NCBI GenBank assembly: GCA_015296085.1
Contig: DVDT01000063.1
Location: 1-64,000 of the forward strand
Length of the DNA: 64,000 nucleotides
Source of the DNA: Trichormus sp. M33_DOE_039
GTDB taxonomy: Bacteria; Cyanobacteriota; Cyanobacteriia; Cyanobacteriales; Nostocaceae
Direction of reading: 5' to 3'
Shown piece by piece: positions 6,048 through 23,059 of the stretch (its first letter is position 1; every line of letters starts with the position of its first letter). A model generated the notes under the pieces. The model was given only the letters and a program-made list of their open reading frames with translations, was not told the DNA's origin and searched no databases. The position numbers were made by a program, and so were the translations under genes.

Positions 6048-6095
6048 GCATAAATCCTGGTAAAATGTCCATAGCCAAGGATACCAAGAAAGAGA

Positions 6096-6740
6096 ATGTT
6101 AACTGTTGCGTTGCCGAAAGGGGAACTACTGAAAAATAGCATCCGTCTCCTGCAATCTGTCGGGTTGGATTTTAGTGCTTTTCTAGACTCAGGAAACCGT
6201 CAATTGCAAATTACTGATGCTAGTGGAACAGCTAAAGGATTATTAGTTAGAGGTCAAGATGTGCCTGTATATGTGGAATATGGTCAGGCACAAATTGGTA
6301 TTATTGGTTACGATGTTCTCCGCGAAAAAAAACCCCAAGTTGCCCATTTAGTGGATTTGGGGTTTGGCTATTGTCGGATGTCGGTTGCGGTGAAAGCTTC
6401 TAGTCCTTATAAATCACCTATAGATTTACCGCCACATAGCCGGGTTGCATCTAAATATGTTAATTGTGCTAATGAATACTTCCAAAGTTTAGATTTACCA
6501 GTGGAAATAGTGCCACTTTACGGTTCGGTAGAGCTAGGCCCCATTACAGGTATGTCTGAGGTGATTGTTGATTTAGTTTCTACTGGCAGAACTTTAAGAG
6601 AAAATGGTTTGATTGAAATTACTACTTTGTATGAAAGCACAGCTCGGTTGATTGCTCATCCTCTAAGTTATCGGCTCAACACGGGTAACTTACATGATTT
6701 GGTTGAGCGGCTGAGAGAGGCTGTCTTAACACCAGCTTAA
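6096..6740 (+). CDS. hisG: ATP phosphoribosyltransferase, short form
   Basis: Catalyses the first step of histidine synthesis, the condensation of ATP with PRPP. At 214 residues it is the short HisG form that lacks the C-terminal regulatory domain and needs the HisZ subunit elsewhere in the genome. Typical segments are [12 protein letters not shown] at the start, [25 protein letters not shown], the PRPP-binding region [19 protein letters not shown] (about 148-166), and [16 protein letters not shown]. It is not in a his operon here: a terminator follows and the next gene is a sensor kinase. This matches the scattered his genes of cyanobacteria. Confidence 0.97.
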
Positions 6741-6806: not shown

Positions 6807-7033
6807 TGTGGAATTATTCTGAATTCTAAATATGTGTTTTTAGGTTTTGTTGAACTAGTAATACAGTTAAGTTATTTAAATAGATTTTTATACAATAAAA
6901 TTAATGCAACGTTTTATTCTATAAATAGATATTTACATCAAAATTTGTTGCATTTTTTAACAAGAATCAAGCTTAAAAAGAATTGAGGAGTCGAAAATTT
7001 GACATTCTCGACCATATTTTTAATCAAAATGCT

Positions 7034-9625
7034 ATGACATCCGATTCTACTGAGCAGGAACAGGCTAGGCTAGCAGAATTACACCAGTACCAAATTCTGG
7101 ATACTGAACCGGAAGCAGCATATGACAATCTGGCACATTTAGCTGCGTTTATTTGTGGTACATCCATAGCTTTAGTTAATTTTATTGATGAACATCGTCA
7201 GTGGTTTAAGGCAAAATTAGGTTTAAGTGTGGGAGAAATGCCTCGTAATGTTGGATTTTCCTACTTATGCCAAGAAACGCGAGATGTTGTAGTGATTCCT
7301 GATGCCTTGGCGGATGATCGCCTGGCCACTAATGCAGTAGTCACATCATATCCATATGTGCGTTTTTACGCAGGTGTACCCCTTTTGAGTCCTCAAGGTC
7401 GGGTATTAGGAACTCTGTGTGTGATTGATCAACAACCCAAAGAATTGAGTCAACGGCAAATTGATGCACTTGTAGCTTTAAGTCACTTAGTAATTGATCA
7501 ACTAGAACTCAGGCGCAATATGGCTCACGTAGCACAAATTAGCGAACAACTGATCAATCAAGAGCAAGCTGCTCGTATAGAATCGGAACTAGTGAGCGAT
7601 CGCGTTAGTAATATTTTGGAAAGTATTACTGATGCGTTTTTCGCTCTCGATAAACAATGGCGATTTACCTACGTTAATGGTCAAGCTGCCAAAATATTGC
7701 AAAAAAACCAAACAGATTTATTAGGTAAAAATATTTGGGAAACATTTCCCGACACAGCAAACACATCATTTGAGCAAGAATATCGCAAAGCAATTACCCA
7801 ACAAACAAGTGTTGAATTTGAGGAATTCTATCCACGTCTAAATAAATGGTTTGCCGTCCACGCCTACCCCAGTAAAAACGGCTTATCTGTTTATTTTCAA
7901 GATATTACAGAGAAACATCATACAGCTTCCGCACTCAAAGAAAGTGAAGAGCGTTGGCAGTTAGCCTTGCAAGGCAATAATGATGGCATCTGGGACTGGA
8001 ACATCAAAACAAATGAAGTCTTCTTCTCCCCACGCTGGAAACAAATGTTGGGGTATGCAGACCATGAACTTAATAACCAGATAGAGGAATGGTTAAAGCG
8101 AGTGCATCCCGATGATTTAAATTGGGTGATGCAAGCTGTTCGAGACCATCTAGATCGCAAAACACCGTATTACATTACAGAACATCGTGTCCAGTGTAAA
8201 GACGGTCACTATAAATGGATTTTAGATCGAGGACAGGCACTCTGGGATGAAACAGGTAATGTAGTGCGAATGGTCGGTTCGCATACAGATATTACAGAGC
8301 GCAAGCAGACAGAAGAAGAACTCAAAAGGCAAAACTTGCGATCGCAATTATTTGCAGAAATCACTGTTAAAATTCGTCAAACCCTGCAAATTGCAGAAAT
8401 TCTCCAAACCTCAGTTCAGGAAGTCCAGACACTTTTGCAAGCCGACAGAGTTTTAATTTTTCGGTTGTGGCCTGATGGTTCAGGAATAGTAGAACAAGAA
8501 GCCGTACTACCCGGCTGGCCTGTAGTTTTAGGACAAAACATCCTCGACCCTTGCTTTCAACAAGACTATGTAGACAAATATCGCCAAGGTAGAGTCAGTG
8601 CAATTATGGATATTGCTCAAGCAGATATTCTAGATTGCCATCGGGAATTTTTACAACAGTTTGGTGTGAAAGCTAACCTTGTAGTTCCAATTCTCCATCG
8701 AGAAGGCATTTGGGGATTGTTAATTGCCCACCAATGTCATGCACCCCGCTACTGGACACAATTCGAGTTGGAATTATTGCAACAGTTAGCTAACCAAATA
8801 GGCATAGCCTTATCCCAAGCACAATTACTAGAACAGCAAACCCGCCAAAGTCAAGAACTGGCTCGTTCCAATGCCGAGTTAGAAAGTTTTGCCTATGTCG
8901 CTTCCCATGACTTGCAAGAACCATTAAGGATGGTCACTAGTTACTTACAACTATTAGAGCGTCGCTACAAAAATCAACTAGACAGCACCGCAGAACAGTT
9001 TATTAGCTATGCTGTCGATGGGGCGCAACGGATGCAAACCTTAATCAATGATTTATTAAATTATTCTCGATTGACTACCCGTGGACAACCCTTTGTTTCG
9101 GTTGATTGTGCTGCAATTTTAGAACGGGTAAAAACTAATCTCACAATAGCTATTGAAGAATCTGGAGCAGTCATCACCCAAGATCCTTTACCTACAGTTA
9201 CCACAGATCCCACTCAACTCACCCAAGTTTTCCAAAACTTAATCGCTAACGCCATGAAATTCCGCCGAGAAATTCCCCTGCAAATTCATATTGGTGCAGA
9301 GAAGGTAGGAGAAGAGCAGGTGAGTAGGGATGCAGGGGGAGAAAGTCTGCCCAATTACCAGTTTTCAATTGCCAATTCCCACCCCCAATGGCTCTTTTGG
9401 GTTCGTGACAACGGAATTGGCATAGAAAAACAATATCTTGAACGTATTTTTGTCATTTTCCAACGCCTACACGGGCGAAGTAAATATCCCGGTACTGGGA
9501 TTGGATTGGCAATTTGTAAGAAAATTATCGAACGCCACGGAGGCCGAATTTGGGTTGAGTCTGAACCAGGACAAGGCTCAGTTTTCTATTTCACAATTCC
9601 AGAACAAGCAGGTCAACAATCGTGA
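7034..9625 (+). CDS. Multidomain sensor histidine kinase with a DXCF-type cyanobacteriochrome GAF
   Basis: A soluble light- or ligand-sensing kinase of 863 residues from ATG 7034; an in-frame TTG at 6983 would add 17 residues. Domain order: GAF (about 5-165, without bilin cysteines), PAS (about 190-300), PAS/PAC (about 305-425, ending at DITERKQ), GAF (about 440-605), HisKA with phospho-acceptor His625 ([10 protein letters not shown]), and HATPase (about 720-850). The second GAF has Cys507 in DPCF and Cys535 in DCH, 28 residues apart, then ANLVVPIL and WGLLIAHQC. This is the signature of DXCF cyanobacteriochromes, which bind phycoviolobilin/phycocyanobilin. The ATPase has the N, G1 (DNGIGI) and G2 (GTGIGLAI) boxes but carries a repeat-derived insertion at about 9301-9385. 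It overlaps the next receiver gene by 4 bp. Confidence 0.9.
9301..9385 (+). repeat. Intergenic-repeat-like in-frame insertion within kinase ATPase domain
   Basis: This stretch encodes about 28 residues between the conserved strand before it ([11 protein letters not shown]) and [12 protein letters not shown], where family members normally run straight on. Its bases (GATGCAGGGGGAGAAAG, CCAATTACCAG, GCCAATTCCCACCCCCAA) look like the G-rich/CCCAAT-type intergenic repeats seen at 34927-35000 and 48620-48723, not like coding DNA. It keeps the frame. The boundaries are approximate. Confidence 0.5.
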
Positions 9626-10068
9626 TCACTACAAAAAATTTTATGCCAATTCAGGTCTTGTTAGTAGAAGATAATCCAGGTGATGTGGAACTTACACGTA
9701 TTGCATTAGAGGATAGCAAAATCTCAGTTAACCTCAATGTGGTAGAAGATGGTGTGGAAGCAATGGCATTTCTGAGAAAACAAGAAAAATATGCCCATGT
9801 ACCTCATCCAGATATAGTTCTTCTGGATTTAAATTTACCCAGAAAAGACGGGCGGGAAGTATTAGCAGAGATTAAAAGTGATGAACATCTCAAACGCATT
9901 CCCGTAGTGGTATTGACAACTTCTCAAGCCGAAGAAGATATTCTCAAAGCGTATAACTTAGCGGCTAACTGTTATATAGCCAAGCCAGTTGATTTTGATC
10001 AATTCGTTAGAATTGTAAAATCTATAGAAAACTTTTGGTTTGCGATCGTCAAACTGCCACCGGAGTAG
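9622..10068 (+). CDS. Single-domain response regulator, Rcp1-like
   Basis: A stand-alone receiver of 148 residues from GTG 9622, or 141 from ATG 9643. The GTG start overlaps the kinase stop (GTGA), which suggests translational coupling. From ATG 9643: the acidic pair is ED at 9-10 ([11 protein letters not shown]), the phospho-acceptor is Asp62 (VLLDLNLP), the switch Thr/Ser is in VVVLTTSQ, and the Lys is in [10 protein letters not shown]. The NPGDV start and the extended loop with PHPD are typical of the Rcp1 family that receives phosphate from cyanobacterial phytochrome kinases. The upstream cyanobacteriochrome kinase is therefore its likely donor. Confidence 0.92.
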
Positions 10069-10073
10069 GGGCT

Positions 10074-12365
10074 ATGGCAGATAAAATTATTCAAGTTCTA
10101 TTAGTAGAAGACAACCCTGGTGATGCTTTTTTAATTCAAGAGTTATTTAGAGAAGTTAATACCGCTAGTATAAATTTACATACAGTTGAGCAATTATCAG
10201 AAGCTATTAACTTATTCAGTGATGAAGTTAATAGCTCTCAGTTTGATGTCATGCTATTGGATTTATCATTACCAGATAGCCAAGGAATCGAAACCTTTAT
10301 TCGAGCTTACAGCCAAGCCAAAACCATTCCGATCATTGTCTTGACTGGTATAGATGATGAAACATTGGCGTTAAGAGCTATGCAGGAGGGAGCGCAGGAT
10401 TATTTAGTTAAAGGACAAGTAACTGGCGACTTACTAGTCCGCTCTATGCGTTATGCCATTGAACGCCAACACACGGAAGATGCACTGCGCCAAAGTGAAG
10501 AGCGATTCCGTGTAGCCTTAAAAAACTCCCCGATTTTTGTGTTCAACCAAGATAGAGATTTACGTTACACCTGGGTTTATAACCAAAGAGCTGGTTGGAC
10601 AGAACAAGAAATGATAGGCAAGAAAGACTGTGAAATCATGCCTCATTTGGATGCCCAAGGCCTCACCGCCATTAAATATCATGTTTTAACTACTGGTATA
10701 GGTACTCGTGCGGAAGTAGCGATTACAACTGACAAAGGGATTCGATATTATGATTTGACAGTTGAACCCTTGCAGAGTGAATCACAAGAAATCATTGGCA
10801 TAACTTGTGCCAGTATTGATATTACTGAACAACAAATTGCTCTAAAAGAACGTCAGTCAGCAGAAGCAAAAATCCGCGAACAAGCCGCATTATTAGACAT
10901 TACCACCGATGCAATTTGTGTACGCGATTTACACAATCAAATACTTTTTTGGAATAAAGGAGCAGAAAACTTATACGGTTGGTCAGCTCAAGAGGTGATT
11001 GGGAAAAATGCCAGTGAACTGTTGTTTACTGAACCATCTCCAGATATAGAGATTGCTTTATTACATGTCATCTCCCAAGGTAACTGGCAAGGGGAGTTAA
11101 ACAAAGTTACTAAAAATGGCAAAGAACTTTTAGTTGCTAGTCGCTGGAGTTTAGTTTGTGACGAGTATGATAAACCAAAATCAATTCTGTCTGTGGATAC
11201 AGATATTACTCAGAAAAAACATTTGGAAGCGCAATTACTTCGTACTCAACGCCTAGAAAGTATAGGGACTTTAGCTAGTGGCATTGCACATGATTTGAAC
11301 AATATCTTGACACCCATTTTAGCGGGGGCGCAATTATTACCCCTAAAATTCCCCGATGCTGATGAACGCACACAGCATTTATTAGAAATTTTAGAAATTA
11401 ATGCTAAACGTGGTGCAGATTTAGTTAAGCAAGTGTTATCTTTTGCCAGAGGTGTAGAAGGGAAACGCATTACTTTGCAACTGAAGCACATTATTTTAGA
11501 ACTTGCCAAAATTCTGAAAGAAACATTTCCCAAATCTATTGAAATAGTTGCAGATATCCCGAAAGAATTATGGCTGATTTCTGGAGATAGCACCCAGTTA
11601 CATCAAGTGATGATGAATCTCTGTGTGAATGCTCGTGATGCGATGTCTGATGGCGGAACACTCACCATTGTGGCAGAAAATTTGTTAATTGATGAAAACT
11701 ATGTTCGCATGAACTTAGAAGCCAAACCCGGCCCCTACATAGTGGTGACAGTTTCAGACACTGGTGTGGGAATTCCAGAAGAAAACTTAGATCGCATTTT
11801 TGAGCCATTTTTTACTACCAAAGCCGTAGGACAAGGTACGGGTTTGGGACTTTCAACAGTAATTGGCATTGTGAAAAGCCACGGTGGTTTTATAAATGTA
11901 GATAGTGTGGTGGGAAGCGGTACAACATTTAAAGTTTATTTACCAGCTGTGGAAGGAACAGAAATATTTAGTCCAGATCAATTGATTCCATTCACAGGGC
12001 AAGGAGAGTTAATCTTGATTGTAGATGATGAGCCTGCAATTCGGGATATCACCAAAACATCTTTAGAGAGCCACAAGTACCAAGCTTTAGTTGCTAGTGA
12101 TGGAATTGAAGCGATCGCTCTCTATGCCAAATATCCAGATAAAATTAGTGCTGTATTAGTGAATCTCATGCTTCCGGGACTAGATGGTTTAACTACTATC
12201 CGTGCTTTGAAGAAAATTAACCCTGATGTGAAAATTATTGCCACCAGTGGTTTAATTGCTAAAAATAAACTGGGAGAAATAGTCAATACAGGTGCTGCCA
12301 CATTTTTATCTAAACCCTACACGATCAACGAGTTGTTATTGGCTTTAAATCAGGTAATGGCGTAA
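10074..12365 (+). CDS. Hybrid histidine kinase (REC-PAS-PAS-HisKA-HATPase-REC)
   Basis: A soluble signalling protein of 763 residues. ATG 10074 is chosen because GGAGTAGGGG precedes it; a longer frame from 10035 would overlap the previous gene. The N-terminal receiver (5-125) has Asp63 (LLDLSLPDSQG) and ends in DYLVKGQV. Two PAS domains follow (about 140-265 and 285-390), then HisKA with His406 (ASGIAHDLNNIL) and an HATPase (about 500-620) with DTGVGIPEENL and GTGLGLSTV. The C-terminal receiver (about 640-760) keeps the DDE pocket and Lys (SKPYTI), but the acceptor position is Asn697 (VLVNLMLPG). The N-terminal receiver could take phosphate from the upstream kinase; the last one cannot be phosphorylated in the usual way. 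Confidence 0.92.
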   Translation: MADKIIQVLLVEDNPGDAFLIQELFREVNTASINLHTVEQLSEAINLFSDEVNSSQFDVMLLDLSLPDSQGIETFIRAYSQAKTIPIIVLTGIDDETLALRAMQEGAQDYLVKGQVTGDLLVRSMRYAIERQHTEDALRQSEERFRVALKNSPIFVFNQDRDLRYTWVYNQRAGWTEQEMIGKKDCEIMPHLDAQGLTAIKYHVLTTGIGTRAEVAITTDKGIRYYDLTVEPLQSESQEIIGITCASIDITEQQIALKERQSAEAKIREQAALLDITTDAICVRDLHNQILFWNKGAENLYGWSAQEVIGKNASELLFTEPSPDIEIALLHVISQGNWQGELNKVTKNGKELLVASRWSLVCDEYDKPKSILSVDTDITQKKHLEAQLLRTQRLESIGTLASGIAHDLNNILTPILAGAQLLPLKFPDADERTQHLLEILEINAKRGADLVKQVLSFARGVEGKRITLQLKHIILELAKILKETFPKSIEIVADIPKELWLISGDSTQLHQVMMNLCVNARDAMSDGGTLTIVAENLLIDENYVRMNLEAKPGPYIVVTVSDTGVGIPEENLDRIFEPFFTTKAVGQGTGLGLSTVIGIVKSHGGFINVDSVVGSGTTFKVYLPAVEGTEIFSPDQLIPFTGQGELILIVDDEPAIRDITKTSLESHKYQALVASDGIEAIALYAKYPDKISAVLVNLMLPGLDGLTTIRALKKINPDVKIIATSGLIAKNKLGEIVNTGAATFLSKPYTINELLLALNQVMA

Positions 12366-21892: not shown

Positions 21893-23059
<1,167 letters not shown>

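Follow-up and report, generated by a model that had tools for sequence, protein, structure and literature searches.

A predicted DXCF-type cyanobacteriochrome kinase beside an Rcp1-like response regulator in a Trichormus genome

The DNA analysed here, referred to as the window, is a stretch of 64,000 nucleotides at the start of contig DVDT01000063.1 of Trichormus sp. M33_DOE_039. It carries on its forward strand a sensor histidine kinase gene followed by the genes of a single-domain response regulator and a hybrid kinase, with the following features:

7034 to 9625, forward strand: open reading frame of the sensor histidine kinase, GAF-PAS-PAS-GAF (predicted DXCF cyanobacteriochrome)-HisKA-HATPase (ORF list, Pfam, comparison of the start between rows)
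7118 to 7510, forward strand: N-terminal GAF domain, without bilin motifs (Pfam and sequence; limits approximate, set by eye)
7616 to 7918, forward strand: PAS domain 1, PAS_4, residues 212-312 counted from TTG (Pfam)
8018 to 8281, forward strand: PAS domain 2, PAS_3, residues 346-433 counted from TTG (Pfam)
8393 to 8812, forward strand: second GAF domain, predicted to bind bilin; Pfam GAF residues 471-610 counted from TTG (Pfam, PDB alignment, model)
8546 to 8557, forward strand: DPCF motif with the second Cys (Cys507 from ATG, 524 from TTG) at codon 8552-8554 (alignments)
8636 to 8641, forward strand: Cys-His pair; canonical chromophore Cys, codon 8636-8638, Cys535 from ATG and 552 from TTG (alignments)
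8882 to 9076, forward strand: HisKA dimerisation/phosphoacceptor domain (Pfam)
9206 to 9607, forward strand: HATPase_c domain, interrupted at about 9299-9391 by an insert of variable length (Pfam, row comparison)
9622 to 10068, forward strand: single-domain response regulator of the Rcp1/RcpA type, starting at a GTG that overlaps the end of the kinase gene by 4 bases (Pfam, PDB)
10074 to 12365, forward strand: hybrid kinase REC-PAS-PAS-HisKA-HATPase-REC (ORF open from TTG 10035; Pfam)

The reading frame of the sensor kinase extends from 6983 to 9625, with TTG 6983 as its upstream limit and the ATG at 7034 as the likely start of the protein. A Met stands opposite this ATG in 26 of 27 aligned rows, among them the copy from the window itself and at least five duplicates of other rows; the exception, L051, has Ile. 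Because of this agreement the numbering of an earlier sequence-only reading of the locus, which had counted from the ATG, is probably right and is kept here; counted from TTG, the DPCF motif starts at residue 522 and the DCH motif at residue 551. Pfam gives the kinase generic names only, namely GAF (two stretches), PAS_4, PAS_3, HisKA and HATPase_c. The insert in the HATPase domain lies between IHIG and WLF(S/W)VRDNGIGIE, and related proteins carry in-frame inserts of about 7 to about 100 residues at this site (the same 27 rows, with the duplicates just mentioned). Several of these inserts are low-complexity repeats of the GTGDRGQ or PNPQSPI type, as if short DNA repeats had expanded within the kinase gene; a DNA search of the own genome with the window's insert returned the insert itself and no second copy.

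The second GAF domain contains D-P-C-F with Cys507 and D-C-H with Cys535, 28 residues apart and followed by ANLVVPIL and WGLLIAHQC. The sequence-only reading had listed exactly these motifs, and its count from the ATG matches; it had further likened the spacing to that of TePixJ and taken the two residues for the thioether cysteines of a DXCF-type domain within a GAF-PAS-PAS-GAF kinase. The alignment it had proposed, run with TePixJ, RcaE, AnPixJ and a row taken to be Tlr0924-like, bears this out, in that Cys507 and Cys535 fall on the DPCF and CH thioether cysteines of TePixJ, and the class assignment is supported by the motif pair, the fold match and the bilin-making enzymes of the genome. 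Its description of the domain as hidden holds for the Pfam names, which are generic, but not for the genome, which yields 54 matches to this GAF domain, partial ones and ones without the cysteines included.

A sequence search of the PDB with the second GAF retrieved, among the 60 matches listed of 62, RcaE (8k9o, 2e-50), the dual-sensor histidine kinase 6oap (5.5e-47) and TePixJ (3vv4, 2.4e-32). Given these scores against bilin GAF domains of known structure, and the superposition of both motifs on those of TePixJ, the motif pair is not a chance occurrence. A structure model built from 81 related sequences has a mean pLDDT of 86.8, and all 50 Foldseek matches listed for it are bilin proteins, headed by 6oap, with TePixJ 4fof at a TM score of 0.85 by target length and an rmsd of 1.6. 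The domain combines a bilin-type GAF, the Cys-His pair (for which His or Tyr is allowed) and Asp-X-Cys-Phe, by which the DXCF type is recognised. Judged from sequence and model, the kinase is very probably a dual-cysteine (DXCF) bilin photoreceptor kinase, in which we infer covalent attachment of the bilin to the second GAF, and as such it is a well-conserved addition to an already known class, the DXCF cyanobacteriochrome kinases.

Other classes fit less well. The extended red/green (XRG) type, marked by WXDXXL (PMC11284453), was rejected since the domain has no Trp and shows DPCF instead of that motif. The insert-Cys type carries its second Cys within an insertion loop, as CXXR/K (PMC5578081), and was set aside because nothing is inserted ahead of the Asp motif. 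A phytochrome was discarded because the Pfam matches of the kinase include no PHY family, and a defence-system kinase because PADLOC gave no match.

Both cysteines are present in 28 of 29 related loci (the window's own excluded), the canonical Cys being absent from L062. Neither varies in an alignment that joins 24 of the 29 loci to the window (58-90% identity) and leaves out L057, L059, L060, L061 and L062. In a wider set, made up of the window and the best 80 of at least 524 relatives in named genomes, 76 of 81 rows have both, spaced by 28 residues in 73, by 27 in two and by 29 in one. The five rows without the second Cys are L112, with DPYF, and L129, L137, L138 and L143, with EVF or EVI and Cys-Leu, and the canonical Cys is followed by His in 58 of the 81 rows, by Tyr in 18 and by Leu in 5. 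Four rows, representing two domains, have the second Cys but not the canonical Cys: L062 (positions 1567-2133; genome G031) keeps DRCF and has Pro-His at the position of Cys-His, and a domain on contig C9 of the own genome (G000; rows L018, L029 and L030) combines DYCF with Pro-His, retaining only the second Cys.

Loci L207, L206 and L208 are presumed here to be Tlr0924-like, Tlr1999-like and Tlr0911-like, the first two being named by gene order. Compared with the named receptors, the domain resembles the TePixJ GAF (3vv4, 4fof, 4glq) in the aligned DPCF and CH motifs, the spacing of 28, the pocket Ile and Pro and the missing Trp, but only 59 of 150 aligned residues are identical, and TePixJ is by its PDB name of the chemotaxis type. 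The highest PDB score belongs to the GAF domain of RcaE (7ckv, 8k9o), a green/red protochromic receptor identical at 93 of 174 positions, in which, however, Q-E-V-F, C-L and K stand where the window has D-P-C-F, C-H and N. The Tlr0924-like and Tlr1999-like rows share the DXCF second Cys (83 and 80 of 188 residues identical) but have Cys-Tyr in place of the window's Cys-His. Entry 6oap, presumably PPHK, likewise holds a bilin GAF in a histidine kinase (82 of 173 identical), but with DQYF and no second Cys.

The genome (7.0 Mb, 116 contigs) encodes three ferredoxin-dependent bilin reductases, pcyA, pebA and pebB, all above the NCBIfam cut-offs, and has 15 matches to phycobilisome families. Three heme oxygenase matches exceed the Pfam cut-off, and NCBIfam at E 1e-20 gave no match for these three fragments. 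Downstream of the kinase, the regulator matches the phytochrome response regulators Rcp1 and RcpA (1jlk and 1k68, E 6e-40 and 1.9e-43); whereas those serve phytochromes, its partner here would be a cyanobacteriochrome kinase, a pairing suggested by gene order. The ATG of the hybrid kinase lies 5 bases past the regulator stop. Among the 29 related loci, 24 have the regulator in their flanks at 76-94% identity, L057, L059, L060 and L061 have a regulator at just 46-48%, and the flanks of L062 contain no regulator of Rcp1/RcpA-like kind; the hybrid kinase is found at 61% identity or more in the flanks of 25.

From these elements a mechanism can be proposed in which the second GAF would bind phycocyanobilin via Cys535 and probably convert it to its isomer phycoviolobilin. 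The form present in the dark would absorb blue light, probably because Cys507 is then linked to the bilin at C10, and blue light would flip the C15=C16 bond and release Cys507, giving a green-absorbing form. The switched state might then change the activity of the HisKA/HATPase module toward the Rcp1-like regulator and perhaps toward the hybrid kinase too. The motif pair, the fold match, the conservation, the gene order and the bilin enzymes of the genome are observations; phycoviolobilin, the colours, the direction of kinase control and the kinase target are what we infer.

As to the colour pair, pocket positions that matter for the isomerisation of PCB to PVB (PMC11284453) were transferred onto the second GAF by hand count, and there the domain equals TePixJ, with no Trp two residues before the Asp, Pro after the Asp and Ile at the position of the Ala of red/green types. 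Since RcaE has this Ile as well, it is permissive evidence only and not diagnostic. A Phe in beta-2 and another in alpha-4 we assume to mark the teal-DXCF types. The beta-2 position is Val in the second GAF, as it is in TePixJ and the Tlr0924-like row, and the alpha-4 Phe is present in the second GAF and absent in TePixJ; both Phe residues are covered by the trapped-twist discussion in PMC5578081. The missing beta-2 Phe was dropped as an argument against teal because the Tlr1999-like row L206, presumed to be blue/teal, lacks it too, with Met at beta-2 and Tyr at alpha-4; Tlr1999 itself is a blue and teal sensor according to a paper's title. Because the Phe criterion failed on this row, blue/green is put only slightly above an even chance as the colour pair, within the dual-cysteine reading.

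A smaller yet considerable share of probability falls to a variant inside that same reading, a DXCF domain with a different colour pair (blue/teal, blue/orange or teal/yellow), which would arise if phycocyanobilin were retained, the photoproduct twisted or the C10 thioether unstable. The alpha-4 Phe and the want of a beta-2 Phe in the Tlr1999-like row both speak for it, as do pebA, pebB and an RcaE-like protein in the host genome, and a teal/yellow precedent would be DpxA of Fremyella, which we take to be a DXCF type. DpxA is a teal/yellow phycoerythrin repressor (PMC4937213) and DXCF photoproducts vary, with teal, green and orange among them (PMC5578081); the compared pocket positions, however, match TePixJ. 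It is very improbable that the second GAF is degenerate and has lost bilin binding, so that the kinase would respond to another signal by way of its first GAF or its PAS domains. Nearby losses do occur, in that L062 and one own-genome domain keep the second Cys and lack the canonical Cys, but both cysteines are retained in 28 of the 29 related loci, and the second GAF is still kept in two relatives that lack PAS domains (one PAS in G004 and both in G013, which keep both GAF domains; judged by match coordinates).

Slighter still is the chance of a protochromic green/red sensor resembling RcaE, even though RcaE is the best PDB match and stands in the window's 38-row tree group (support 83/76). 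The protochromic triad of RcaE, which we take to be Glu217, Leu249 and Lys261, fits the aligned RcaE letters under a single numbering offset by hand count, and its positions correspond to the X of the DXCF motif, to the residue that follows the canonical Cys and to the Asn in ANLVVP. All three differ, RcaE having E, L and K and the second GAF P, H and N, and the second GAF has the second Cys in addition; according to PMC9415938, Leu adjoins the Cys in both CcaS and RcaE. The green/red protochromic class of RcaE and CcaS was rejected for the domain since the Glu, Leu and Lys of the triad are missing.

The triad and the second Cys were also tallied over 210 rows, which include references and duplicates; because the DXCF columns of the red/green rows are out of register there, only triad and second-Cys rows were used. 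The canonical Cys and the triad occur without the second Cys in 27 rows, and the triad together with the second Cys in 8 (L013, L147, L149, L150, L151, L152, L155 and L127), where Asp was accepted for Glu and Ile for Leu. The first of these, L013, is a paralogue in the own genome, a hybrid kinase of 1663 residues (L217:1681-6672, contig C102) whose GAF domain (L013:1501-2058) has D-E-C-F, C-L and K, that is, the protochromic triad and the DXCF second Cys at once. Both features are kept or nearly kept in its relatives L147, L149, L150, L151, L152 and L155; L148 and L157 have Lys for the triad Glu, and the second Cys is missing from L153 and L154. L127 (positions 565-1131), from a Thermosynechococcaceae MAG in the window's tree group, has DDCL, Cys-Leu and Lys, a triad-like set with the second Cys.

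Trees were made without the motif columns. The first, of 82 rows, contained a single TePixJ row and omitted the long row L025_1; the second, of 99 rows, added TePixJ relatives and also omitted L010_1, L017_1 and L173_1. In the 82-row tree the window clade and RcaE lie inside a 40-row set (96/90). In the 99-row tree TePixJ falls in an 18-row clade of its own (99/95). The sister set (99/81) holds the window together with RcaE, further sequences that bear the triad, and the Tlr0924-like and Tlr1999-like rows, the window being joined directly to RcaE weakly, in the 38-row group. Of the groupings tested, all of which were named after the trees had been seen, placing the window's DXCF rows with TePixJ was not rejected in the 82-row set with its one TePixJ row (p 0.35), and forcing the window rows into the TePixJ clade lowered lnL by 35.2 (AU p 0.052). 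A clade of the window and the RcaE group is absent from the free tree but was not rejected (p 0.37), and a clade that joined the window rows to L207 and L208 and left RcaE out was rejected (AU p 0.006). The second GAF thus probably lies outside the lineage of TePixJ itself and is likely nearer to RcaE and the Tlr0924-like receptors, with an RcaE-like kinship; on these alignments and trees, a TePixJ-like spacing does not imply a protein of the TePixJ lineage.

In the 82-row set, a single clade of all rows with Cys-Leu/Ile...Lys was rejected (p 0.02). When a single clade was imposed on the 31 rows of DXCF type in the window's group, the result lay 0.85 log units above the free tree (p 0.52), so a single change suffices and repeated exchange is not needed. 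Across independent branches, there were too few informative pairs to show whether the second Cys and the triad exclude each other. A tentative proposal, which we hold as possible and somewhat doubtful, is that the window's domain represents a kinase-linked DXCF lineage of recent common ancestry with the RcaE type rather than TePixJ, in which thiol-adduct blue and protochromic green/red sensing were exchanged at least once through about four pocket positions, namely the X and the C in DXCF, the residue that follows the canonical Cys, and the Asn/Lys of ANL/AKL. If this were true, L013-type paralogues, which join the full triad to the second Cys, could be an intermediate that still exists or a switch that combines both mechanisms.

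The locus would add to the Nostoc-like cyanobacteria a conserved receptor of blue/green type with a probable cognate Rcp1-like regulator, where domain libraries report only a GAF/PAS kinase. The comparative side may be the more useful, as relatives within one tree use either the second cysteine or the protochromic triad at overlapping positions, and a change of colour-switch chemistry could thereby be tested by a few point mutations. On contig C113 of the same genome, a span of about 21 kb contains pcyA (1635-2303), an RcaE-like GAF domain (6064-6621) and another GAF domain of the triad type (22343-22930), the RcaE-like domain being identical to RcaE at 163 of 181 aligned residues.
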